A stretch of DNA of 64,000 bases, taken from contig NZ_PGEN01000001.1 of the NCBI RefSeq assembly GCF_002797435.1, forward strand, positions 3,532,501 through 3,596,500, in the 5' to 3' direction. Below the pieces are notes generated by a model that did no database searches, was not told where the DNA came from, and saw only the letters and a list, made by a program, of their open reading frames with translations. Every line of letters begins with the position of its first letter. Within the stretch, counting starts at the first letter, position 1. Shown here in pieces: positions 3,301 to 42,472 of this stretch. The translations under genes were made by a program, and so were the position numbers. Source of the DNA: Sphingomonas koreensis. Its GTDB lineage: Bacteria > Pseudomonadota > Alphaproteobacteria > Sphingomonadales > Sphingomonadaceae.

Positions 3301-5009
3301 TTCTTGGGCGGTTTGCCGCGATGATGGGGCTTGGCCGGACGGGCGCGGTGGACCGGGCGGTCATGGTTGCGCGGCTTGTGGTGACGTGGGGCATGGTCGC
3401 CGCGCGTTCCGGGCGGGGGTGGACCATCGGCCACTTCGATCAGCACGCCGTCCTCATCCTGCGCGGCGGTCTTGGCGACCTCCTTGGCGAAACGATCGGC
3501 GAGCTTGGTCGGAATCTGGAAGCGGGTCTCGCCAGCGCCGATGCGGATCGCGCCGATTTCCGACTTGGTGATATGGCCCCGGCGGCAGATCAGCGGCAGG
3601 ATCCAGCGCGGATCGGCGTTCTGGCGACGGCCGATGTTCATGCTGAACCAGACGACTTCGTCGAAGCCCGGACGATGGACCGGCGCGCTCCGTTCGGCCG
3701 GCGAACGGTCGATCAGCTCCTCGGGCGCGGGCATCGACGCGCGATGCGCCTGGACCAGCGCGGCGGCGATCTCGAGCGGGGACTTTTCCGCCAGCAGCGC
3801 CTCGGCGATCTCGCGATCCTCGTCCTCGATCTCGATCGGAGCGATGAGCTTGGTCATCAGCCGTTCGCGATCCTTGGCGCGGATATCCTCGGCGCCGGGG
3901 ACGGGCAGCCACTCGGCGGCGATCTTCGCCTGCTTGAGCGTCATCTCGACGCGGCGGCGGCGCGGATAGGGAACGATGAGCACCGCGGTGCCCTTCTTGC
4001 CCGCGCGGCCAGTGCGGCCCGAACGGTGCTGAAGCGTCTCGGCGTCGCGCGGCAGCTCGACATGGATGACCAGCGTTACGGTGGGCAGGTCGATCCCGCG
4101 CGCGGCGACGTCGGTGGCGACGCAGACGCGCGCACGGCGGTCGCGCAACGCCTGGAGCGCGGCGTTGCGCTCGTTCTGGCTATGCTCGCCCGACAACGCC
4201 ACGGCGGCAAAGCCGCGCTCGGTGAGGCCGGCATGGAGGTGGCGGACATTGTCGCGCGTCGCGCAGAACAGGATCGCGGTCTCCGCCTCGTGGAAGCGGA
4301 GCAGGTTGATCACGGCATGTTCGATGTCGGCGGGGGCGACGGCGATCGCCTGATAGGTGATGTCGCCATGACCGCGATCCTCGCCCACGGTCGAGATGCG
4401 GTGCGCGTCATTCTGGTAGCGACGGGCCAGCGCGACGATCGGCTTGGGCAGCGTCGCCGAGAACAGGAAGGTGCGGCGCTCGGGCGGGGTCGCGTCGAGC
4501 AGCGCCTCCAGCTCCTCGCGAAAGCCCATGTCGAGCATCTCGTCGGCCTCGTCGAGCACGGCGATGCGCGCCTGGCTCAAGTCGAGCGCGCCGCGCTCGA
4601 CATGGTCGCGCAGACGCCCCGGCGTGCCGACGACGATGTGCGTGCCATAGGACAGCGTGCGGCGCTCGCGCGACGCATCCATGCCGCCGACACAGGTCGC
4701 GATGCGTCCGCCGGCCGAGGCGTAGAGCCAGCTCAGTTCCTTGGCGACCTGAAGCGCCAGCTCGCGCGTCGGTGCGATCACCAGCGCGAGAGGCAGGCCG
4801 GGGGCGGGGAGCTTGCCGTCCTCGAGCAGCTCGTCGGCCATGGCGAGGCCGAAGGCGACGGTCTTGCCCGAGCCGGTCTGGGCGGAGACCAGCAGGTCGC
4901 GGCCTTTGGCGGCGTCTTCGGTGACGGCGGCCTGCACCGGAGTGAGGGCGGTATAGCCGCGCGCGGTCAGCGCCTCGGCGAGGCTGGCGGGGAGGTGGGT
5001 AAAGGTCAT
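3297..5009 (-). CDS. DEAD-box ATP-dependent RNA helicase (DbpA/CsdA-like)
   Basis: A 570-residue RNA helicase for ribosome assembly or RNA turnover. Motif I AQTGSGKT is at residues 43-50, Ia APTREL near 79-84, Ib GTPGR near 128-132, II DEAD at 153-156, III SAT at 184-186, and motifs V/VI are in ATDVAARGID and HRSGRTGRAGKKG. After the two RecA domains comes a DbpA-like RNA-binding domain (VVWFSMNIGRR ... RWILPLICRRGHITKSEIGAI ... FQIP), then a basic His/Pro/Lys-rich tail typical of proteobacterial members. The start is placed at MTFTHLPASL, the usual N-terminus of the family, rather than at far-upstream in-frame codons. It lies upstream of and overlaps the DUF188 gene. Confidence 0.93.
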   Translation of the reverse strand: MTFTHLPASLAEALTARGYTALTPVQAAVTEDAAKGRDLLVSAQTGSGKTVAFGLAMADELLEDGKLPAPGLPLALVIAPTRELALQVAKELSWLYASAGGRIATCVGGMDASRERRTLSYGTHIVVGTPGRLRDHVERGALDLSQARIAVLDEADEMLDMGFREELEALLDATPPERRTFLFSATLPKPIVALARRYQNDAHRISTVGEDRGHGDITYQAIAVAPADIEHAVINLLRFHEAETAILFCATRDNVRHLHAGLTERGFAAVALSGEHSQNERNAALQALRDRRARVCVATDVAARGIDLPTVTLVIHVELPRDAETLQHRSGRTGRAGKKGTAVLIVPYPRRRRVEMTLKQAKIAAEWLPVPGAEDIRAKDRERLMTKLIAPIEIEDEDREIAEALLAEKSPLEIAAALVQAHRASMPAPEELIDRSPAERSAPVHRPGFDEVVWFSMNIGRRQNADPRWILPLICRRGHITKSEIGAIRIGAGETRFQIPTKLADRFAKEVAKTAAQDEDGVLIEVADGPPPPGTRGDHAPRHHKPRNHDRPVHRARPAKPHHRGKPPKK

Positions 5010-5196: not shown

Positions 5197-7272
5197 ATGA
5201 AAACCGAAACCGCTTACGCGGCATTGCTGCTCGGCGCCTCAATGCTCGCGCTCACCTCTCAGGCCCATGCGCAGGAGGCAGTCGAGGCGCCCGCGACCGC
5301 CGAGAGCGATGACGTTGTGGTGGTGGTCGGTGCGCTGACCGATGTGGATCTGGATCGCAAGGCGATCCAGGCGATCCAGGCGAATGACCTGTCCGACCTG
5401 TTCCGCAACGTTCCCTCGGTCGCGGTGGGCGGCTCGCTCGGCATCGCGCAGAAAATCTATGTGCGCGGGCTCGAGGATTCGATGCTCAACGTCACCATCG
5501 ATGGCGCGCCGCAGCGCGGCACATTGTTCCACCATGTCGGCCGCGTCAGCATCGAGCCGGAGCTGCTCAAGAGCGTCCAGGTTCAGGCCGGCGCGGGTGA
5601 GGCGGATTCGGGCTTCGGCGCGATCGGCGGCGCGATCCGCTTCCGCACGGTCGATCCCACCGACCTGCTGCGCAACGGCCGCGATTTCGGCGTGATCGCC
5701 AAGGGCGGCTGGTTCAGCAATGACGGTTACAAGCTGTCTGGCACCGCCTTTGCGCGGCTGACGGGCGATATCGGCATCCTCGCTTCGTTCGTGCATGTCG
5801 ACCGCGAGAACTTCAAGGACGGCAACGGCACGACGCTGCGCGGCACCGCCGCCAAACAGCAGCTGGGCTTCGTCAAGATCGGCGGTGACCTCGGCGCCGG
5901 GCATCGCCTGACGCTGAGCTATGAACAGCGCAACGAAGAGGGCGATTTCGGCATGCGTCCGAACTGGCCGGTGCTGGCGAACGACCGGCTGTTCGCGGTC
6001 GAGGGCAAGCGCAAGACCGCGATCGCCAATTACGGCTTCGAGACGGCCGTGGGAATCGATCTGGAGGCGACGGGTTACTGGACCCGCACCGAGTTCACCC
6101 AGAACCGATCGGACCGCTGGGGCCTGTATGGTGCGAATATCGACAGCTGGGGTTTCGACGCACGCGCGCGCATCCGTCGCGGCGGGCATGACGTGACGGT
6201 CGGGTTCGAGCATCGCTCGGACCGCGTCGTCGGCCAGTATCTCGGTGCGCCGGCCCAGTGGCAGGCCTGGGCATGGGACCCCGCGGTCGGCCGGTTCGAA
6301 GAGAAGGGCGCACTGATGGGCGTCTATATCCAGGACCGCTGGCGCGTGGTCGAGCCGCTGCTGCTGAGCTTCGGCGCGCGCTACGACGCCTATGACCTCG
6401 ATCAGGTGACCTATCGCAAGGGCATCGACAGCGATGGCGTGAGCTTCAACGCGGGCGCCACGCTGGATGTTCTGCCGGGCCTGTCGCTCAATGCCGGCTA
6501 TGCCGAAGCGTTTCGCGGCAAGGAGATCGGTGACGGTTTCACGCTCGAGAAGCGGCCCGGCCGCATCTCGCTCGCGCCCGGCCTCAAGCCCGAACGAGTC
6601 GAGAATATCGAAGGTGGCGTGAAGTATGACCGCAACGGCATCACGGCATCGGCGGTCTATTACCGCACCAAGATCCGGGATGTCGTGCTCGACCAGCTCG
6701 GCGCGGTCCGGACGCCGGGTACCGTTCAGGACGCGGTCTATTACGAGAATGTCGGCAACTTCAAAGCCGAGGGCTTCGAGCTGCGCGCCGGTTATCGCAC
6801 CGGCCCCTTCTCGATCGAGGGCTATTTCAACCACTATGATTCGCGCCTCAACGACAAGCGGATCGAGGGGTATGAGCAGATTGCACTCGGCAATTCGGTG
6901 GGCGACAACTGGGCGGTGAGCGCTGCGTTCGAACCCTCGTCCGACCTCAGCCTGCGCGCGACGGTGACCCGCTATGAGGATCTGAACGATATCGAGGTGC
7001 TGTTCCGCGAAAAGCAGCTCGGCTTCTTCAACAAGACCTATTTCATCGACAAGCCGGGCTACACCGTGGTCGACATCTCCGGCACCTGGCGTCCGTTCGG
7101 CACCGACATGATCGAGCTGCAGGCCGCGGTCTATAATCTGCTCGACAAGCAGTATCGCGCGCATGCCAGCGTCGGCGACTATAGCCAGATCGGCGTGGCG
7201 GGGTATGAGATCGTGCGCGGCCTGCCCGAGCCGGGCCGTAATATCCGCCTCGGCGTCTCGTTCCGCTATTGA
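5197..7272 (+). CDS. TonB-dependent outer-membrane receptor
   Basis: A 691-residue receptor for energised uptake across the outer membrane. The signal peptide (about residues 1-25, cleaved after AHA) is followed by a TonB-box-like stretch DDVVVVVGA near 38-46. The plug domain holds DLSDLFRNVPSVAVGG, IYVRGLEDSMLNVTIDGAPQ and EADSGFGAIGGAIRFRT, and the beta-barrel ends in the terminal aromatic residue (GVSFRY). The plug resembles haem or ferric-siderophore receptors. The adjacent PepSY protein, overlapping by one base (TGATG), supports a role in iron acquisition. The start was chosen at the signal peptide; it is the first gene of a five-gene plus-strand run. Confidence 0.92.
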   Translation: MKTETAYAALLLGASMLALTSQAHAQEAVEAPATAESDDVVVVVGALTDVDLDRKAIQAIQANDLSDLFRNVPSVAVGGSLGIAQKIYVRGLEDSMLNVTIDGAPQRGTLFHHVGRVSIEPELLKSVQVQAGAGEADSGFGAIGGAIRFRTVDPTDLLRNGRDFGVIAKGGWFSNDGYKLSGTAFARLTGDIGILASFVHVDRENFKDGNGTTLRGTAAKQQLGFVKIGGDLGAGHRLTLSYEQRNEEGDFGMRPNWPVLANDRLFAVEGKRKTAIANYGFETAVGIDLEATGYWTRTEFTQNRSDRWGLYGANIDSWGFDARARIRRGGHDVTVGFEHRSDRVVGQYLGAPAQWQAWAWDPAVGRFEEKGALMGVYIQDRWRVVEPLLLSFGARYDAYDLDQVTYRKGIDSDGVSFNAGATLDVLPGLSLNAGYAEAFRGKEIGDGFTLEKRPGRISLAPGLKPERVENIEGGVKYDRNGITASAVYYRTKIRDVVLDQLGAVRTPGTVQDAVYYENVGNFKAEGFELRAGYRTGPFSIEGYFNHYDSRLNDKRIEGYEQIALGNSVGDNWAVSAAFEPSSDLSLRATVTRYEDLNDIEVLFREKQLGFFNKTYFIDKPGYTVVDISGTWRPFGTDMIELQAAVYNLLDKQYRAHASVGDYSQIGVAGYEIVRGLPEPGRNIRLGVSFRY

Positions 7273-8441
7273 TGGCGGAAGCGGTGAAGGGGCCGCCACC
7301 TGCCGCAAAGCGCCGGTGGCGGCCGTTCGCGCGGATCTGGCACCGCTGGTTCGGGATATTCGGCGGGCTGTGGCTGTTGCTGCTGGCCGTCACCGGATCG
7401 GCGGTGACCTTCTATGACGAGCTCGACAGCTGGCTGAATCCGGACCTGCGGACGATCCCTGCGGCGACACGGCAGCACGTGCCCATGGACCTTGCCGTCA
7501 ACCGGGCACAGGCGGCGCTTCCGGGGTTCGCGCCCAACAATATCCTGATGCCGTCGCATTCGCAGGGCACGATCTGGATGCTCGGCCGCGCGCCGCTGGG
7601 CGAGGGCAAGCCGCGCCCCGTCCAGCTCTTCGCCGATCCGCGCGACGGGCGCGTGCTCGGCTGGCGGGAGAGCGGCAAGGTCTCGCTCGACCGGCGGCAC
7701 CTGATGGACGTGCTCTACGGCCTGCATGTCGATCTGCTCGCGGGCGCCTGGATGACCTGGTTCTTCGGCCTCGTCTCGTTCGCCTGGCTGATCGATCACG
7801 CGATCGCGCTGTGGCTGGCGGTACCGGCGCTGGCCAAGTGGCGCAGTGCCTTCGCCGTCGCGGGACGGCCGGGCAGCCTCCGGCGATTGTTCGACTGGCA
7901 CCGCGCGCCGGGCATGTGGGCCTGGCCCGTCACCTTCGTCCTGGCTCTCACCGGCGTGACGCTCGCCTGGCCCGATGACAGCCGTAGCGCGGTGGCGCTG
8001 GTGTCGCCGGTCAACGAACGGCTTCACGAGCACTGGCCCGATGTCGAACCGCCCGCACGCCCGGTGGGGCTTGAGGCGGCGATGGCGGCGGTGGTTACCG
8101 ACCGTTCGCGCGTGCACAGCCTGCGCCTCCTGCCCGATCATGCCGCCTATGCCGTACGCACTTTCGACCCGCGCGACCGCGACGATCAGGGGCGGCTGTG
8201 GACCTATGTCGCGATGGCCGATGCGCGCATCCTCGCGACCCGCCACGACAATGGGGAAAGCGCGGGCGACCAGTTCTTCGCCTGGCAATATCCGCTGCAT
8301 TCGGGGAAGGCGTTCGGGGCTGTGGGACGGTGGATCGTCTTCGTCTCGGGTATCGTCACCATGGCACTTGTGGTCACTGGCTGGATGCTGTGGCTGCGTC
8401 GCCGTCGGCAGCATCGCGCATCGCCCGCCCGCAAACAGTAG
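7272..8441 (+). CDS. PepSY-associated transmembrane protein
   Basis: A 389-residue inner-membrane protein of the PepSY/iron-regulated membrane protein family. Helix 1 is near residues 25-50 (RIWHRWFGIFGGLWLLLLAVTGSAVTFYDELD). Paired helices include MTWFFGLVSFAWLIDHAIALWLAVPAL and WAWPVTFVLALTGVTLAW, and the last is VFVSGIVTMALVVTGWMLWL before a basic tail. Conserved His residues in LHVDLLAG and WHRAPGMWAW are candidate haem ligands. Such proteins accompany TonB receptors for siderophores and may reduce the imported ferric complex. ATG at 7272 overlaps the receptor stop; a TTG at 7269 is also possible. Confidence 0.85.
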   Translation: MAEAVKGPPPAAKRRWRPFARIWHRWFGIFGGLWLLLLAVTGSAVTFYDELDSWLNPDLRTIPAATRQHVPMDLAVNRAQAALPGFAPNNILMPSHSQGTIWMLGRAPLGEGKPRPVQLFADPRDGRVLGWRESGKVSLDRRHLMDVLYGLHVDLLAGAWMTWFFGLVSFAWLIDHAIALWLAVPALAKWRSAFAVAGRPGSLRRLFDWHRAPGMWAWPVTFVLALTGVTLAWPDDSRSAVALVSPVNERLHEHWPDVEPPARPVGLEAAMAAVVTDRSRVHSLRLLPDHAAYAVRTFDPRDRDDQGRLWTYVAMADARILATRHDNGESAGDQFFAWQYPLHSGKAFGAVGRWIVFVSGIVTMALVVTGWMLWLRRRRQHRASPARKQ

Positions 8442-8460: not shown

Positions 8461-9720
8461 ATGCGTATGCCGGGCATGTCTGTATCCGCGTCCCCGCTTT
8501 TTCCGACCGGCACCGCGCGCGTCAGGTCCTCGGCACGCCCGACCCGCGTGGCCTTGTTCTCCGGCAATTACGATTGCGTGCGCGACGGCGCCAACCGCGC
8601 ACTCAACCGGCTGGTGGCGCACCTGCTCGACAAGGAGGGCGCCGAGGTTCGCGTCTTCTCCCCCCGCGCGCCCAAACCCGCCTTCGCCGCTGCGGGCAAC
8701 GTCCGCGCGGTGCGCTCGCTCGCACTGCCGGGGCGACCCGAATACCGGCTGGCGCTGGGCCTGACGCGCGCGGCAAGGATAGAGCTCGAGGCGTTCGCGC
8801 CGGACATCGTCCACCTTTCCGCGCCCGACCTGCTCGGCCGGCAGGCGCAGAAATGGGCGCGGGCGAGGGGGATCCCGGTGGTGGCGAGCCTGCATACCCG
8901 GTTCGAGACCTACCCCGCTTATTACGGGATGGGCTTTCTGCGTCCGGTGATCGAACGCTATCTCGACCGCTTCTATGGCGACAGCGACCTGATCCTTGCG
9001 CCGACCCGGCCGATCGCCGACGAGCTGGCCGCCAAACATGGCGCCGGCCGCGTGTCGGTCTGGAGCCGCGGGATCGATCCCGCGGCCTTTCACCCTTCGC
9101 TGCGCGACGAAGCGACCCGCGCCGCATTCGGCTATGCGCCCGGCGATATCGTTCCGCTCTTCTTCGGGCGGCTGGTGCAGGAGAAGGGCCTTGGCGTGTT
9201 CGCCGATACGATCGACGCGTTGCAGGCGTCGGGACATGCCGCGCGTCCGCTGATCGTCGGCGAGGGACCGGCGCGCGGCTGGTTCGAGAAACGGCTGCCC
9301 GGCGCGGTCTTTGCCGGGCATCTGGAAGGTGCGGCGCTGGGCCGCGCCGTGGCGAGCGCGGACATCCTGATCAACCCGAGCGTGACCGAGGCGTTCGGCA
9401 ACGTGAACCTGGAAGCGATGGCGAGCGGCCTCGCGGTGGTTTCCGCCGATGTGCCGAGCGCGTCGGCGCTGATCGCGGACGGCCGGACCGGCTGGCTGGT
9501 CTCCCCGCATGCCCCCGCTGCCTATGCGCGCGCCGTGCGGATGCTGATGCAGGAAGCGCCATTGCGCCGCGCCATGGGCGCTGCTGCGAGCATGGAGGCG
9601 CTGCGCTATCGCTGGGACGATGTGCTGGCGGGGGTTGCAGCGGATTATCGCCGCTGCCGCTCCCTTGACGCCGCGAAGGTGGACGCGACCCCGCGGTTGC
9701 TGCAGGAACTTGCGGCGTGA
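8461..9720 (+). CDS. Glycosyltransferase family 4 (GT-B fold)
   Basis: A 419-residue retaining glycosyltransferase. The N-terminal acceptor domain has LFSGNYDCVRDGANRALNRLVAHL and ASLHTRFETYPAYYG. The C-terminal nucleotide-sugar domain has FFGRLVQEKGL, ADILINPSVTEAFGNVNLEAMASGLAVV (the E-x7-E motif of GT4) and a final helical tail. It resembles alpha-mannosyltransferase, MgtA and sulfoquinovosyl-lipid synthase proteins, so a lipid or envelope acceptor is likely; donor and acceptor cannot be read from sequence. It follows the PepSY gene by about 20 bases and overlaps the next sigma-factor gene by GTGA. Starts at 8461 or 8476 are both possible, and neither has a strong ribosome site. Confidence 0.88.
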   Translation: MRMPGMSVSASPLFPTGTARVRSSARPTRVALFSGNYDCVRDGANRALNRLVAHLLDKEGAEVRVFSPRAPKPAFAAAGNVRAVRSLALPGRPEYRLALGLTRAARIELEAFAPDIVHLSAPDLLGRQAQKWARARGIPVVASLHTRFETYPAYYGMGFLRPVIERYLDRFYGDSDLILAPTRPIADELAAKHGAGRVSVWSRGIDPAAFHPSLRDEATRAAFGYAPGDIVPLFFGRLVQEKGLGVFADTIDALQASGHAARPLIVGEGPARGWFEKRLPGAVFAGHLEGAALGRAVASADILINPSVTEAFGNVNLEAMASGLAVVSADVPSASALIADGRTGWLVSPHAPAAYARAVRMLMQEAPLRRAMGAAASMEALRYRWDDVLAGVAADYRRCRSLDAAKVDATPRLLQELAA

Positions 9721-36842: not shown

Positions 36843-38303
36843 TCAGCGCCGGGGCGCCGCCTTGCACTGGATATAGACCGGGTTGCCGATCAGCAGCTTG
36901 CGGTCCTCGGGGCCCAAGACATTGACCGCGATCCAGCCGCAGGCGGCGGTGCGGGGGATGTCGAAACGGGTCGCGGGCGCGAGCGGCGCCCGTGCATGCT
37001 CCTTGCCGTTGGCGATGAGTTGCACGGTTCCGGCCTCGACGCCGGTGACGAGAGCCTCGACCTGGATGGTCGCGGCGGGTGCGGTGATGGTCTCGCCCAT
37101 CGCTACGCGCGCCTTGCCCGATACGGCCGTGACCTCGAGCATCCGGTCGCGCGTCCCCTGGACATCGATGAAGACATTGCCCGCGCGGATGCCGTCGAGG
37201 ATCGCGGGCTGGGAAAGCTCGCGGGCGCGGACGACGGTGGAGGGACGACCGATCGGCGCGCTGCCCGGACGAGCGGTGTCGGGATCGTGATTGTCGCTGC
37301 TGCCAATGCCGGTGATGCGGAACCCGCGGTTGAGCTTGTCGTACCAGAAGTCGAGCCCGGCGAGCGGCGGCTGGGTGGTGAGGCCGTTGATCGCCTCGAT
37401 CGCCGTCACCTTGCTCCAGTCCGTATCCGGCCAGACCCAGCCGCAGCCCATGCACGCCTCGCCCGAGGGGAGCGCAGGGTGATTGACCGAGAGGATCGCG
37501 CCCGCCGCGGCGACATCCTTCTGCAGCGCGGAGACATTCGGCACGCTGGGGCTGCCGACGCGGAAGTCGACCCAGCGCGACTGGCCAAAGATGTTGGCAT
37601 GGCCGCCAAAGGTGGTGATCTCCGCGCCCGGGATCAGCAGCAGCTTGTCGTGGAAGGGCTGGAGCTCACGCAGCGCGGAGAAGTGCGAGCTGGTGTTGTG
37701 ATCGGTGACCGCTATGAAATCGAGGCCCGCTTGTGCCGCGGTTTCAACGGTGCGGTAGAGCGGGCAGGGGACGCGCTTGCCCTGCTGGCTGGCGCAGCTG
37801 CCGTCCGAATGCGCGTCGTGCATGTGCAGGTCGCCGCGATACCAGCCGGGGCCGGCCCTGAGCGGCGCGTCGGCGATGGCGGCGCTGGCGTTGAGGGCGG
37901 TGCCGCGGTCGAAGAAGACCTCGACGCGGTACGCGCTGCGGGCGTCCTTGCGGGCGTTGGGGACGCCGAACTGGACGTGCCAGCGGCCGGCGGGCAGCGC
38001 GCCGGGGAGGTAACCCGGCGTGGCATCGCTTTCGCTCAGGGTGAAGCGGTCGCGCGTGCCCCCGCTCCAGCCGCGGAAGCGCTGGGGATCGAAGATGCCC
38101 AGATCGACCACGGTCCTGTTCGCCTTGTCATAGGTCAGACGGACGGTGATCCGTTCGACGCCCGCGGGGACGTCGAACGGGATCGCCTTGTAGGTCTGAT
38201 GATCGGCGCCGGTGATCTCGCCGGTGACGGTATGGTCCGCCTCCTGCGCCGCGGCGGGCGTGGCGAGACATGCAAGTGCCGCGAGCAGGAGACGGACGCG
38301 CAT
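36843..38303 (-). CDS. CehA/McbA family periplasmic metallohydrolase (PHP domain)
   Basis: A 486-residue exported hydrolase. The signal peptide covers residues 1-19 (ending AAA before QEADH). An N-terminal beta domain is followed by the PHP fold: RGDLHMHDAHSDG with metal ligands at H160 and H162, FIAVTDHNTSSHF, IPGAEITTFGGHANIF, ILSVNHPALPSGE and GIGSSDNHDPDT. CehA/McbA relatives cleave carbaryl and other esters or phosphoesters. Its start overlaps the upstream TonB-receptor stop by one base (TGATG), so the two are coupled: the receptor may import what this enzyme splits. The substrate is unknown. Confidence 0.87.
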   Translation of the reverse strand: MRVRLLLAALACLATPAAAQEADHTVTGEITGADHQTYKAIPFDVPAGVERITVRLTYDKANRTVVDLGIFDPQRFRGWSGGTRDRFTLSESDATPGYLPGALPAGRWHVQFGVPNARKDARSAYRVEVFFDRGTALNASAAIADAPLRAGPGWYRGDLHMHDAHSDGSCASQQGKRVPCPLYRTVETAAQAGLDFIAVTDHNTSSHFSALRELQPFHDKLLLIPGAEITTFGGHANIFGQSRWVDFRVGSPSVPNVSALQKDVAAAGAILSVNHPALPSGEACMGCGWVWPDTDWSKVTAIEAINGLTTQPPLAGLDFWYDKLNRGFRITGIGSSDNHDPDTARPGSAPIGRPSTVVRARELSQPAILDGIRAGNVFIDVQGTRDRMLEVTAVSGKARVAMGETITAPAATIQVEALVTGVEAGTVQLIANGKEHARAPLAPATRFDIPRTAACGWIAVNVLGPEDRKLLIGNPVYIQCKAAPRR

Positions 38304-40813
38304 CAGAACTTGAAGTCCACGGCGAAGCGGAAGTTGCGGCCGAGGATCGGGCGGCCGATGAACAACAGGTCATTGGCCTGGCCGCTGGTCAGCTCGCCCG
38401 CGCGCGGATTGCCTTCGGTGAGGCCGATGGTGTTGGTGAGGTTGTCGCCATAGGCCCAGAGCTGGATGTTCTCGGTCACCTTGAAGCGCACGCTGGCGTT
38501 GACCACGGTGTAGGCGGGCAGCTCCGACGTGTTCGCCGCATCGGCATAGCGCTTGGTGTAGTGCTCGACATCGGCCTGCGCGCGGAAACGGTCGCCGAGC
38601 AGCGTGACCGCCGGGGTTGCACGCAACGCGAGCTTGGGCACGCGCAGCAGCTGGTTACCCGAATAGTCGCGGTTGATCAGCGTCGGCTGGCCGTTGGCAG
38701 TGCCGAGCTCGGCATAGCGCAGGTTGCGGAAGGTCGGCTCCTGCCAGGTCGCGTTGAGCGTGAAGTCGAACCACGGCGCGGGGCGCACCGTGCCCTCGAA
38801 CTCGACGCCATAGGCGCGGGTGTCGGTATAGACGGTCTGGCTGACATAGCCGTTGGTCGCCGTGTCGAATCGCGTATTGCCGATGCCGTAGGAATCGAAA
38901 TCGGTGAGGAACGCGGTGGCGTAGAGGCTGAGGAAGCGCGAACCGTATTTGAGGCCCGCTTCCCACATGTCGATGCCCTGCGTGACCGGCTGGGCGGTGG
39001 CGCTGGTGATGAAGCTGCCGACGCTGGGCAGGCGGAAGGCCGAGGTGTAGCGCGCGAAGACGCCGGCATTGTCCATGAACTTCCAGTCGGCGCCGAGCGT
39101 CCAGCCGAGCTTGTCGAACTTGCGGTCGAAGGGGGTGAACGCGCCGTTGCCGGTGAGTACGCTGTCGTCGGCGAGGATCGCGGCATTGCCGAGATTGACG
39201 GTGCGGCTGCCTTCCTGCGCGCCGCGCGTGGTCACTTCTTCGTACCGCAGGCCGCCGTCGATGCGCAGCGCCGGGGTGATCTGCCACTCGTCAGACGCGT
39301 AGATGGCGAAGGTGCTCTGCGAGCCATAGCCGTTGGCGAATTCGGAGCCGTAGCGCGCGACGCCATTCTCGGTGAGCGAGCCGACAACCTGACCCGCCGC
39401 GTTGAGCGCGACGAGGTTGAGCAGGCGGCTGTTGTTCGACACGTCCTGAACGGTCGAGGCCGAGTAGCGGCGGAAGGTCTCGTCGATATGCGCGTAGTAG
39501 ATGCCGACCGCGACGTCGTGCGTGCCCGCCGCCTCGAACCGCCGCGCGATCCGCACATCGTTGAGCAGTTCGCTTTCCTCGATCGTCACCGGGCGCGCGG
39601 CGTTGATGAACACGTCGCCATTGCCGTTCTGGCCGGTGACGTTGAAGGCGGTGCCGTCATCGACATAGCGCAGCTGGACGCTGGTCGCGCCCGGGAACGC
39701 CGTCAGGACCTGCGGGCGATAGGTGTTGAGGAACGCCGTCGCGGTGCTGATCGAGGCGGGGTAGACGCCGTTGCGCACGGTGTTCGAATCCCGGTAGCGC
39801 AGCTTGTGGCTGAGCTTCCAGCCGTCGCCGAACTCCCAGTCGGTGATCCAGCTGAGCTGGTCGAGCCGGATGCGCGAGCCTTCTTCCTGGCGGAAATCGA
39901 CCGGGCCGGTCGCGCTCCTGAGCGTCAGGCGGCGGGTCTGGCGGCTGGCGGTGGTGCCGTAATGCGGGTCGAAACCCGGCAGGCCGACGATGTCGCCGTC
40001 CGAATCCTTGGTCAGCGGGATGCCGGTGTAGAAGATCGCGTTGTCGGCGAGGTGCTTGTAGCTGATCGAGGTGCGGCCGCCGGCGAATTCGCCATGCACC
40101 GCGGCGCGGATCTGGCCGCCCTTGTTGCCGGCATAGCCCGGATCGCGCACGCCGCGCTCGTTGCGATAGAAGCCGCCGACATCGACCGACCAGCCTTCGG
40201 CCACCGGCATGCCGACCCACGCATCGAAGCGGTAGAGATCGGCGGTCGGGCCATAGAGCAGGCGGGCATTGCCCTTGAGTTCGGTCATCGCGCGGCGGGT
40301 GATGTAATTGACCACGCCGCCCGGCGCGTTGGAGTAGAACACCGAGGACGGGCCGCCGCGCACCACTTCGATCCGGTCGATCGATTCATCGATGCGGAAG
40401 GCCTGATCGGCGTTCAAATAGCCGAGCGCGGGATCGTGCTGAACGGGCAGGCCGTCCTCGAGCAGGTTGATCGACCCGAAGCCGTCGACCGGGATGCCGC
40501 GCGCGCGGATATTGCCCGATCCTTCGCCGCCCGACGCCTCGACCCAGAAGCCGGGAACCGACTTCAGTGTCTCGGTCACGCTCGACGGCGCGCGCGAGCG
40601 CAGCATGTCGTTCGACAGCGTGGTGATCGCATAGCTGGTGTCGAGCTTGGTGCGCTCGCCCGCGCCTGCGCGGCCGGTGACGATGATCTCGCCATCCTGG
40701 CTGTCGGCTTCGGACTCGGCGCCGGTTGCCTGATCCTGCGCCAGCGCGGGCAGGCTGACGGAGAGCAGAAGCGCGGAAACGCTGGCGCGGGCGAGCGCCT
40801 TGCGGATGATCAT
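38303..40813 (-). CDS. TonB-dependent outer-membrane receptor
   Basis: An 836-residue receptor. The signal peptide ends near LPALA-Q (residue 25), and a TonB-box-like EIIVTG lies near 42-47. The plug spans about 55-175 (YAITTLSNDMLRSRAPSSVTETLKSVPGFWVEASGG, IRARGIPVDGFGSINLLEDGLPVQ, EVVRGGPSSVFYSNAPGGVVNYITR), and the barrel ends in FAVDFKF with a terminal Phe. Its length is that of large sphingomonad receptors rather than the roughly 600-residue BtuB. It lies downstream of a cobalamin riboswitch and a thioesterase gene and is coupled to a PHP-type hydrolase. The transported ligand is unknown; cobalamin or another B12-dependent nutrient is worth testing. Confidence 0.92.
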   Translation of the reverse strand: MIIRKALARASVSALLLSVSLPALAQDQATGAESEADSQDGEIIVTGRAGAGERTKLDTSYAITTLSNDMLRSRAPSSVTETLKSVPGFWVEASGGEGSGNIRARGIPVDGFGSINLLEDGLPVQHDPALGYLNADQAFRIDESIDRIEVVRGGPSSVFYSNAPGGVVNYITRRAMTELKGNARLLYGPTADLYRFDAWVGMPVAEGWSVDVGGFYRNERGVRDPGYAGNKGGQIRAAVHGEFAGGRTSISYKHLADNAIFYTGIPLTKDSDGDIVGLPGFDPHYGTTASRQTRRLTLRSATGPVDFRQEEGSRIRLDQLSWITDWEFGDGWKLSHKLRYRDSNTVRNGVYPASISTATAFLNTYRPQVLTAFPGATSVQLRYVDDGTAFNVTGQNGNGDVFINAARPVTIEESELLNDVRIARRFEAAGTHDVAVGIYYAHIDETFRRYSASTVQDVSNNSRLLNLVALNAAGQVVGSLTENGVARYGSEFANGYGSQSTFAIYASDEWQITPALRIDGGLRYEEVTTRGAQEGSRTVNLGNAAILADDSVLTGNGAFTPFDRKFDKLGWTLGADWKFMDNAGVFARYTSAFRLPSVGSFITSATAQPVTQGIDMWEAGLKYGSRFLSLYATAFLTDFDSYGIGNTRFDTATNGYVSQTVYTDTRAYGVEFEGTVRPAPWFDFTLNATWQEPTFRNLRYAELGTANGQPTLINRDYSGNQLLRVPKLALRATPAVTLLGDRFRAQADVEHYTKRYADAANTSELPAYTVVNASVRFKVTENIQLWAYGDNLTNTIGLTEGNPRAGELTSGQANDLLFIGRPILGRNFRFAVDFKF

Positions 40814-40892
40814 GGTCGTCCCCTTTGGATGTTACGGGCAGCAGGACTGCCGGGGCGCCCTAGGGGTAACCGGTTTCACATTGGCGGCGGGT

Positions 40893-40924
40893 CGATGACC
40901 GGGCGGTTACAGCACGATGACCGG
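40893..40924 (-). promoter_or_regulatory. Direct repeat upstream of the receptor gene
   Basis: CGATGACCGG occurs at 40893-40902 and again at 40915-40924, start to start 22 bases, i.e. two helical turns. It lies 80-111 bases upstream of the receptor start. It could be an activator site, which would give the receptor its own promoter besides read-through from the thioesterase gene. Confidence 0.3.
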
Positions 40925-40933
40925 TTGGCGACG

Positions 40934-41698
40934 TCAGCCGGGAATCGGGGTCGACCTTCCATCCGGCCCGACTGCGACCATGGTGAAGGTGGCGGCGGCG
41001 GAGCGGCGGCGCTCGCCGGTGAGCAGGTCCTCCGCCCACAGCTCGACCGCGACCGCGACCGAGCTGCGGCCCTGCATGCGGATGCGCGAGACCAGTTCGA
41101 CCATCTCCCCCGCGCGGATCGGGGAGGTGAAGTCGATCCGGTCGGACGCGGCCATCACCATCACCGCGCGGGCATGGCGGGTGGCGGCGATGAAGGCGGC
41201 CTTGCCCATCATCCTGAGCGCGTCGCCGCCATAGAGGGTGCCGTAATGGTTGGTCTGGGGCGGGAAGACCATCTCGGCCATGCGCAGCACGCCGGGCTCG
41301 GGTTCCGAGGCAGGCGCGATTGGAGGCAGGGGCAGGCGGGTGCCCGGTCCCTTGACCGCGACGAGGGTGAAGACCCCGCGCGTACACAGCCGCCGCTCGC
41401 CGCTGACCGGCGCTTCGGCGACCAATGTGATCTCGGCATCGAGCGAAGCGGTGCCGACGCGGACGATGCGACCCGACGCCTCGACCATCTCGCCGGCGCG
41501 CGCCGGGGCGGCGAAATCGATGCGCTGCGAGGCGGCGGTGACGAAGGGCGCGCGGCCATGGCGGCTGGCGGCAAGGAACGCGACCTTGTCCATATGCGCG
41601 AGCGCCACGCCGCCGAACAAGGTGCCGTGGTGATTGGTGTCACCCGGAAAGACCATGTCGATCAGGCGGACGATCGGTTCTGCGGTGGCTTCAGTCAT
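40934..41698 (-). CDS. Acyl-CoA thioesterase with two fused hotdog domains
   Basis: A 254-residue protein in which the YciA/BACH-type hotdog unit is duplicated. Unit 1 (about residues 10-115) has DTNHHGTLFGGVALAHMDKVAFLAASRH, and unit 2 (about 140-245) has QTNHYGTLYGGDALRMMGKAAFIAATRH. Each ends with FTLVAV or FTMVAV. The Asn-His-x-Gly-Thr-Leu motif with a following Asp is the thioesterase active-site signature; unit 2 lacks the HMDK Asp (it has MMGK), so unit 1 is probably the catalytic half, as in other double-hotdog enzymes. It is the first gene downstream of the cobalamin riboswitch. Confidence 0.88.
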   Translation of the reverse strand: MTEATAEPIVRLIDMVFPGDTNHHGTLFGGVALAHMDKVAFLAASRHGRAPFVTAASQRIDFAAPARAGEMVEASGRIVRVGTASLDAEITLVAEAPVSGERRLCTRGVFTLVAVKGPGTRLPLPPIAPASEPEPGVLRMAEMVFPPQTNHYGTLYGGDALRMMGKAAFIAATRHARAVMVMAASDRIDFTSPIRAGEMVELVSRIRMQGRSSVAVAVELWAEDLLTGERRRSAAATFTMVAVGPDGRSTPIPG

Positions 41699-41707
41699 CG
41701 TTCTCAA

Positions 41708-41726
41708 ATCCCGAATGGGGCGGGAT
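41708..41726 (-). promoter_or_regulatory. Hairpin covering the thioesterase ribosome-binding region
   Basis: ATCCCG and CGGGAT form 6-base arms with a 7-base loop. On the minus strand the 3' arm CGGGAT is the best ribosome-site candidate and lies nine bases before the ATG. The hairpin could be the translation-controlling part of the riboswitch upstream. Confidence 0.4.
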
Positions 41727-41818
41727 GACGACCGGGCATGCACGATTGCGCGCCGGCGCAAGGCCGGCGGCGCGTGCAAGCGGCCAGACCGGGCACCCCG
41801 CCGGTGGACGTTATGGCG

Positions 41819-42006
41819 TCGCGGGCAGGTCTCCTGGCTTGCGGGTCAATGCGGACGGCCCGGCCTTCCCGGAGCACGCTCCAGTGACACATGGAAGGCC
41901 GCCGCTCACCGCTTACAGTTGCGGGGGCAGCACCGGGCTCGCACCGGTTTCCCGTCTTAGCTCCGGCGCGGACGGACCGGCCGGAGAACCTTCGACCCCG
42001 CCAGCA
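41819..42006 (-). promoter_or_regulatory. Cobalamin (adenosylcobalamin-class) riboswitch
   Basis: Read on the minus strand, the element has the conserved order of a B12 riboswitch: GGGAAACCGGTGCGAGCCCGG, then the B12 box CCCCCGCAACTGTAAGCGG (about 41912-41928), CACTGG, CCGGGAAGGCC and the closing GCAAGCCAGGAGACCTGCC (41824-41842). The 5' arm of P1 lies near 41990-42006. It points at the thioesterase gene whose start is about 120 bases downstream, then the TonB receptor and PHP hydrolase. Exact ends are approximate. When bound by cobalamin such RNAs switch expression off. Confidence 0.93.
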
Positions 42007-42034
42007 TCGCGCCGGTGGGATCGAACGTCAATAG

Positions 42035-42058
42035 AGATATAAAGAATTCTTTATATCT
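42035..42058. repeat. 24-base perfect AT-rich palindrome
   Basis: A perfect dyad centred on the GAATTC at 42044-42049, with arms extending to AGATATAAA on the left and TTTATATCT on the right. It begins one base past the VOC gene stop (42059) and lies about 30 bases upstream of the riboswitch. In a GC-rich genome this is exceptional. A promoter/operator for the riboswitch transcript is the favoured reading; an AT-rich terminator of the VOC gene is the alternative. Confidence 0.7.
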
Positions 42059-42472
42059 TCAGCCGGGAGGTCCTTTGAGTTCGACCACATTGCCCTCGGG
42101 ATCGCGGATATAGAAGGAGGGGCCTTCTCCCTCGGCGCCGTAGCGCGGGCCTTCTTCGATGATCGCGACATCGTGCGCGGCAAGGTGCGCGCGCAACGCG
42201 GGATCGTCGAACGGCTCGATCGCGAGCGCGAAATGATCGAGGTTGCGTCCCTCCTTGCCCGGAGCGGCGCCGCCGCGCGCGCCGAGCTGGCCGTCAAGGG
42301 TGACGAGGTCGATCAGCGAGGCGCCGGCACGGAGCTGGTAGAGGCCGAGCTCGGGCTGCGCGCGCTCGTCCGTGCAGCCGAGAACCGCGTGGTAGAAGGC
42401 CAGCATGCGCGGCAGATCGGCGACGCGCAGCACGATATGGTCGAGTCCGCGCATCGCGAAGGGTTGGGTCAT
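42059..42472 (-). CDS. VOC-family (glyoxalase/bleomycin-resistance fold) protein
   Basis: A 137-residue protein with paired beta-alpha-beta-beta-beta units. MRGLDHIVLRVADLPRMLAFYHAVLGC, the middle NLDHFALAI and the C-terminal SFYIRDPEGNVVELKGPP carry the metal-ligand positions His, His and Glu. The reaction is unknown, since the family includes glyoxalases, dioxygenases, epimerases and drug-binding proteins. It lies upstream of the cobalamin riboswitch on the same strand, so it is not under its control. ATG at 42472 follows AGGAGAG. Confidence 0.87.
   Translation of the reverse strand: MTQPFAMRGLDHIVLRVADLPRMLAFYHAVLGCTDERAQPELGLYQLRAGASLIDLVTLDGQLGARGGAAPGKEGRNLDHFALAIEPFDDPALRAHLAAHDVAIIEEGPRYGAEGEGPSFYIRDPEGNVVELKGPPG

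Follow-up and report, generated by a model that had tools for sequence, protein, structure and literature searches.

The window we have analyzed is a stretch of 64,000 nucleotides from Sphingomonas koreensis. The locus of interest is found on its minus strand. It begins with a cobalamin riboswitch aptamer of the RF00174 family (41807..42008), followed by a leader (41692..41806) which reaches the start codon of a double-hotdog acyl-CoA thioesterase of 254 amino acids (40934..41698). Behind a gap at 40814..40933 there is a large TonB-dependent receptor with a Plug and a barrel (38303..40813), which is paired with a CehA/McbA-type metallohydrolase (36843..38303). Both are neighbours of the thioesterase which probably fall outside the B12 unit.

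A covariance-model search of the 64-kb window gives a complete match to RF00174 (model positions 1-189) with 116.5 bits, far above the gathering score of 31.5 (E = 1.6e-28). A tRNA is the only other RNA found above its gathering threshold. The original prediction of a cobalamin riboswitch, which had named this search as its check, is thus borne out. The motifs it quoted are also present, GCAAGCCAGGAGACC at the 3' end of the aptamer and CACTG in its 3' domain. The span it gave, 41698..42006, requires a small correction: The aptamer proper corresponds to 41807-42008, while 41698-41806 is the leader up to the start codon. The same aptamer (locus L089) was recovered again in a second Rfam search.

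In a minimum-energy fold prediction, a hairpin at 41692-41734 encloses the AUG and may constitute a translational expression platform. No intrinsic-terminator-like sites are found from 40700 to 42100. The predicted position of the start codon and the lack of a visible intrinsic terminator make translational control of the thioesterase likely. A promoter-like site, TTGACG-17-GATGCT, can be read by eye on the minus strand at 42003..42031, and its counterpart in G274, the genome with the closest thioesterase, is TTGACG-17-GATATT, also read by eye. We infer that this site could be the promoter of the riboswitch; a strict consensus scan of the locus finds no promoter, 42003..42031 included. Just upstream of the promoter-like site, at 42036..42057, there is a 22-bp A+T-rich perfect palindrome, GATATAAAGAATTCTTTATATC, again read by eye. 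G274 has a similar but imperfect palindrome at the same position.

The first gene behind the riboswitch had been predicted to code for a fused acyl-CoA thioesterase, outside the usual list of cobalamin genes, and both claims hold. PF03061 matches the protein in two stretches with 106.7 bits, over a gathering score of 20.6, which places it in the hotdog superfamily. Its best solved relative is AGR_L_2016p (2gvh, E 8.8e-72), a tandem hotdog. It is related to YciA, of which it is no equivalog: The YciA model NF007970 gives 86.1 bits, below its cut-off of 162. Its halves are in swapped order with respect to the cytosolic acyl-CoA hydrolase 6vfy/4zv3, which we take to be ACOT7: In 6vfy, the first half finds its match in domain 2, and the second half in domain 1. 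When both halves are matched by motif, Asp37 in the first half falls at the place of YciA D44, the catalytic Asp according to PMC10560148. An Asp is found at this place in all 68 readable rows of the 71 thioesterases we have compared. In the second half, the 52 rows which can be read by motif all have Gly or Ala there, the other 19 being unreadable. In summary, the protein has the fold family, the tandem hotdog arrangement and the Asp at the D44 place in common with thioesterases of the YciA/ACOT7 type. On the other hand, it has the Asp in the first half only, and its gene is linked to a riboswitch.

The distribution of the thioesterase in the genus shows how constant this linkage is. The gene is present in 40 of the 295 genomes, that of S. 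koreensis included, and absent from the other 255. All 40 loci were fetched, and a profile made from the 31 usable riboswitch sequences served to locate riboswitches in them. A riboswitch is found upstream on the same strand in 37 cases, with three different arrangements. The most frequent one is riboswitch-metE-thioesterase (19 loci), where metE often overlaps or abuts the thioesterase. Seven loci have the order riboswitch-mesX-mesD-(...)-thioesterase. In the remaining 11 the riboswitch directly precedes the thioesterase, and five of these have a divergent riboswitch alongside, with mesX-mesD behind it. The loci of G052 and G142 have no upstream riboswitch, and that of G109 is cut at a contig edge and reads metE-thioesterase. 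As a rough estimate, about 0.1% of genes would be expected to lie behind one of three riboswitches at a distance of up to 4 kb. With 37 of 40 loci linked, the thioesterase is a conserved gene of the cobalamin-riboswitch regulon.

A scan extending beyond the genus gave 53 loci, which become 31 when the 26 with a protein identical to one from the genus are removed and four further loci are added. A same-strand upstream riboswitch is found in 15 of them (nine with metE, six direct). It is missing in the other 16, one of which (L183) has a divergent riboswitch. Considering all thioesterases together, 18 of 71 do not have an upstream riboswitch on the same strand. The riboswitch-metE-thioesterase order is found in Methylopila, Blastochloris, Ferrovibrio, Geminicoccus (where about 1.1 kb separates metE and the thioesterase) and a MAG labelled Thiohalocapsa. 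When nine loci were rechecked with Rfam, including L089, L182, L185 and L192, RF00174 was over threshold in all nine. The locus of the Ferrovibrio MAG (L182) also contains a SAM-I/IV riboswitch (RF01725, 49.4 bits) at 8744-8883, on the other strand, about 1 kb downstream of the thioesterase.

We have also built a quick tree of the 71 thioesterase proteins, with weak support at 22 of its 66 inner forks. Along this tree, 11 changes of the direct arrangement are counted among 53 rows, the 52 linked to a riboswitch and the one at a contig edge. Thus the partner gene changes, while the riboswitch tends to remain linked to the thioesterase. In other words, the thioesterase is a recurrent cobalamin-riboswitch gene. 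It is also associated with MetE, which is found in 22 of the 40 thioesterase genomes and in 36 of the 255 others (p = 6e-8, two weak matches not counted).

The genome of S. koreensis, a single contig of 4.40 Mb, contains three RF00174 matches, including the one in the window. The second riboswitch precedes MesX (PF08908), MesD, an SBF-like transporter and a flavin reductase; mesX-mesD is a B12-independent methionine synthase. The third one (L003/L005) precedes a receptor and further genes. The start of this receptor and its context allow us to read it as a probable BtuB, and the genes after it as a probable B12-salvage run.

The history of the locus may be traced by comparison with G274, whose thioesterase is 89% identical and appears as sister in the quick tree (SH-aLRT 96). 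The order in G274 is VOC, riboswitch, metE, thioesterase, receptor, hydrolase. The leader in the window can be aligned with that of metE in G274 as far as the metE start codon and slightly beyond: The alignment continues for 5 nt into the reading frames, and resumes 18 nt inside the thioesterase. No match to the N-terminal domain of MetE is found in the genome of S. koreensis. Since G274 has metE between riboswitch and thioesterase, the locus in the window more likely arose by remodelling of a metE operon than as a new assembly. It is probably an older riboswitch-metE-thioesterase operon minus metE, in which the metE leader now heads the thioesterase. As distant genera also have the order with metE, a late insertion of this gene in G274 is less likely. 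Loss is the simplest history and would fit these data, the tree itself being equally compatible with gain. B12-free methionine synthesis would be covered by mesX-mesD behind the second riboswitch.

What the thioesterase might act upon is suggested by its single-hotdog kin. The neighbourhoods of three such genes were read, at L208 of G046 (4513-4941), L209 of G193 (4312-4731) and L222 of G467 (6928-7296), and all three genes head prpD-prpC-prpB runs. A search of the genus with the hotdog of G193 (E <= 1e-30) finds only those of G193 and G046 besides the double-hotdog thioesterase. Both show the run hotdog-prpD-prpC-prpB-queH; the gene families have been checked in G193, while in G046 a PrpD-like frame overlaps prpC, as read by eye. 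A sample of 190 genomes of the class (E <= 1e-38) adds one more genome, G467, which belongs to another family and reads hotdog-prpD-prpC-prpB, also by eye. The position of these genes at the head of prp runs ties this type of thioesterase to propionyl-CoA. The link is suggested on thin numbers: three neighbourhoods read, two of them from close kin, for a hotdog which has 1255 matching proteins in the database (E <= 1e-20). The hotdog of G193 has Gly in place of the catalytic Asp of YciA, as in the second half of the thioesterase, so its reaction may differ from that of the thioesterase.

The genome of S. koreensis contains a methylmalonyl-CoA mutase, near a VOC gene which may be read as an epimerase, and no prpB match at E <= 1e-60. 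From these two features, the B12-dependent mutase route seems to be its main outlet for propionyl-CoA. The mutase is found in all 40 thioesterase genomes. One of them (G175) only has a fragment at a contig end; it looked like a counterexample without mutase, a reading which was dropped because the fragment stops close to the edge of a contig of 4403 bp. As nearly every genome of the genus has the mutase (278 of 295), its presence is uninformative as a test of function (p = 0.14 against the thioesterase). A prpB over the cut-off is present in 21 of the 295 genomes: eight of the 16 without mutase and 13 of the 279 others, counting G175 among those with mutase. The other eight genomes without mutase, which do not have a prpB over the cut-off either, are 81-96% complete. 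Thioesterase genomes are not depleted in prpB (3 of 40, against 18 of 255), and an exclusion of prpB by the thioesterase was rejected for this reason. No prp operon under a riboswitch is seen at 20 prpB loci or at the G467 locus.

Four loci, L202 (G249), L203 (G047), L204 (G045) and L207 (G232), have a riboswitch after prpB and before metE or mesX. Their genes have the size and place expected for acnD-prpF-prpC-prpB, with a queH-sized gene in three of the four, and then comes riboswitch-metE or riboswitch-mesX-mesD. AcnD and QueH are confirmed in L202 only. These loci could be B12-independence islands.

Our preferred explanation, which we consider reasonably probable, is that the riboswitch controls the thioesterase, that the enzyme would be made when B12 is scarce and would unload propionyl-CoA and methylmalonyl-CoA, that the locus would derive from an older metE operon which no longer has metE, and that receptor and hydrolase would be separate from it. 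It starts from the complete aptamer, the identities of the genes, the conserved linkage, the absence of metE by comparison, the presence of the mutase and the lack of MetE and prpB matches. The response to the ligand would be as follows: When B12 is present, the aptamer would be closed and thioesterase levels low. The ON state would be that without B12, when the leader would open and the thioesterase would be made, together with MetE or MesD where these are present. When B12 is short, methylmalonyl-CoA mutase would stall, and propionyl-CoA and methylmalonyl-CoA would build up and tie up CoA. As its physiological role, the thioesterase would hydrolyse these two substrates, setting CoA free and allowing the acid to leave.

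A more general version of this explanation is that Alphaproteobacteria run a damage control for B12 shortage. The riboswitch would turn on B12-free enzymes and, along with them, a dedicated propionyl-/methylmalonyl-CoA thioesterase which rescues CoA while the mutase is idle, and the switch would have been kept after metE loss. We propose it tentatively, at somewhat less than even chances.

A less specific role is unlikely. In this case the enzyme would be a short-chain acyl-CoA thioesterase of general use which recycles CoA, under B12 control on account of the many CoA esters that accumulate once B12 enzymes are idle, and with no preference for propionyl-CoA or methylmalonyl-CoA. Its relative YciA from Haemophilus influenzae is reported to act on the CoA esters of mesaconic and 2-methylsuccinic acid, releasing both acids (PMC10560148). 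Two double-hotdog thioesterases, in Woodsholea (L187) and Glycocaulis (L191), have no cobalamin riboswitch and are found, as read by eye, among apparent pyruvate dehydrogenase genes, a place which fits a general role in CoA recycling. On the other hand, the presence of the three single-hotdog kin in prp operons points more narrowly to propionyl-CoA.

It is still less likely that the thioesterase, under B12 regulation, assists methionine synthesis itself and is unrelated to propionyl-CoA, for example by supplying or clearing a metabolite of MetE or MesD-MesX. This would explain its position on the same strand behind metE or mesX-mesD in 27 of the 40 genus loci (19 with metE, seven with mes genes, and G109). 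Nevertheless, the 11 loci with a direct riboswitch and the 11 changes of arrangement on the tree argue against such a partnership, as does the presence of MetE without the thioesterase in 36 of 58 MetE genomes. In addition, the fold family of the thioesterase acts on acyl-CoA.

Returning to our preferred explanation, the separation of receptor and hydrolase is suggested by their distribution. Their identities are those originally described: The metallohydrolase belongs to the CehA/McbA family (261.1 bits with NF038032, whose cut-off is 80), and the receptor has the Plug and barrel domains. We have rejected the receptor as a B12 transporter, since its score with the BtuB model TIGR01779 is 51.4 bits, for a cut-off of 599.7. 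The hydrolase has matches in 17 of 100 genomes, S. koreensis included. Eight loci from the 16 other genomes were read (L081-L088, 8.5-9 kb each), and all eight have a receptor, 49-81% identical to that of the window, directly before the hydrolase; in none of them is there a riboswitch near the pair. Among 97 thioesterase loci (40 from the genus and 57 others, 26 of which repeat a genus locus), the pair is present only in the window and in G274. The gene-order comparison in other sphingomonads, which the original prediction had proposed, thus speaks against it, with the pair absent from the other 38 thioesterase loci of the genus in the stretches fetched. Receptor and hydrolase do not behave as genes of the cobalamin-riboswitch regulon: Apart from the window, only G274 has this order.

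The gap before the receptor contains the motif CCTAG (40860-40864). The same motif is found 45-57 nt before the called start of the receptor in six of ten loci (L081-L084, L089, which is the window, and L114), and in L085 it lies before an alternative GTG start. In the window, this receptor is the only one of 63 gene starts with CCTAG between -75 and -30. From such a distribution, a promoter specific to the pair is most likely, and the gap is its probable place. Neither a terminator-like nor a consensus promoter site is found at 40814..40933. As there is no terminator-like site from 40700 to 42100, there is room for partial read-through into the receptor. The gap also contains three 11-bp repeats, GGTCATCGTGC, TGTAACCGCCC and GGTCATCGACC, in addition to CCTAG and AAACCGGTT. 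The repeats presumably resemble the 11-bp repeats of PhoB, and together with CCTAG and AAACCGGTT they may form a control site of PhoB or LacI type for the pair. The score as a Pho-box merely ties for first with one other of 63 upstream regions, so it was rejected as a result and kept as a lead.

Receptor and hydrolase are probably a module of their own, found by chance downstream of the thioesterase. That the three genes form a B12-repressed uptake-and-processing unit of new composition, as originally predicted, is highly improbable and was rejected as a conserved unit: They share the strand, a gap of only 120 nt without any terminator-like site and their order with G274, but there is no riboswitch at eight of eight other loci of the pair, the pair occurs at two of 97 thioesterase loci, and the receptor is no BtuB and is preceded by its own upstream element.

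Four classes of genes are recognized in cobalamin regulons: B12 synthesis, transport of B12 or its precursors, cobalt transport, and isozymes of B12-dependent enzymes (Sun et al. 2013, PMC3766115). The thioesterase resembles the riboswitch-controlled B12-independent isozymes, such as metE, in its aptamer family, in having metE or mesX-mesD as neighbours in relatives and in its expected expression at low B12. It differs from them in that it fits none of the four classes as given there: It would handle the consequence of the failure of a B12 enzyme, and would replace none.

The MesD-MesX system, a folate-independent methionine synthase (Price et al. 2021, PMC7857596), is the second riboswitch-linked operon of S. 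koreensis and a frequent neighbour of the thioesterase. The words thioesterase and riboswitch do not occur in the main text of that paper. Addition of B12 lowers the transcript of DUF1852, the MesX family, by about 8 log2 units in two strains of Acinetobacter baumannii, as reported in PMC12892962. In Sphingomonas haloaromaticamans, which bears the same genus name, three cobalamin riboswitches have been described near btuB and bluB (PMC6970198), in a main text which does not mention any thioesterase. In the open literature we have found, supplements such as that of PMC3766115 aside, no thioesterase is described behind a cobalamin riboswitch. Texts which join metE, riboswitch, thioesterase and cobalamin use these words apart, and the accessible parts of PMC6759758, PMC8123684 and PMC6970198 likewise contain no such thioesterase.

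There is nothing unusual about the riboswitch itself, which belongs to a known family, while its thioesterase target and the logic behind it appear to be a new variation. If our explanation is correct, the retention of a thioesterase under a cobalamin riboswitch across many lineages would extend the known targets by a fifth kind, metabolic damage control, and the scarcity of a vitamin would be linked to the coenzyme A pool. The thioesterase is an easily testable gene for how B12-dependent bacteria without the methylcitrate cycle may handle the build-up of propionyl-CoA.
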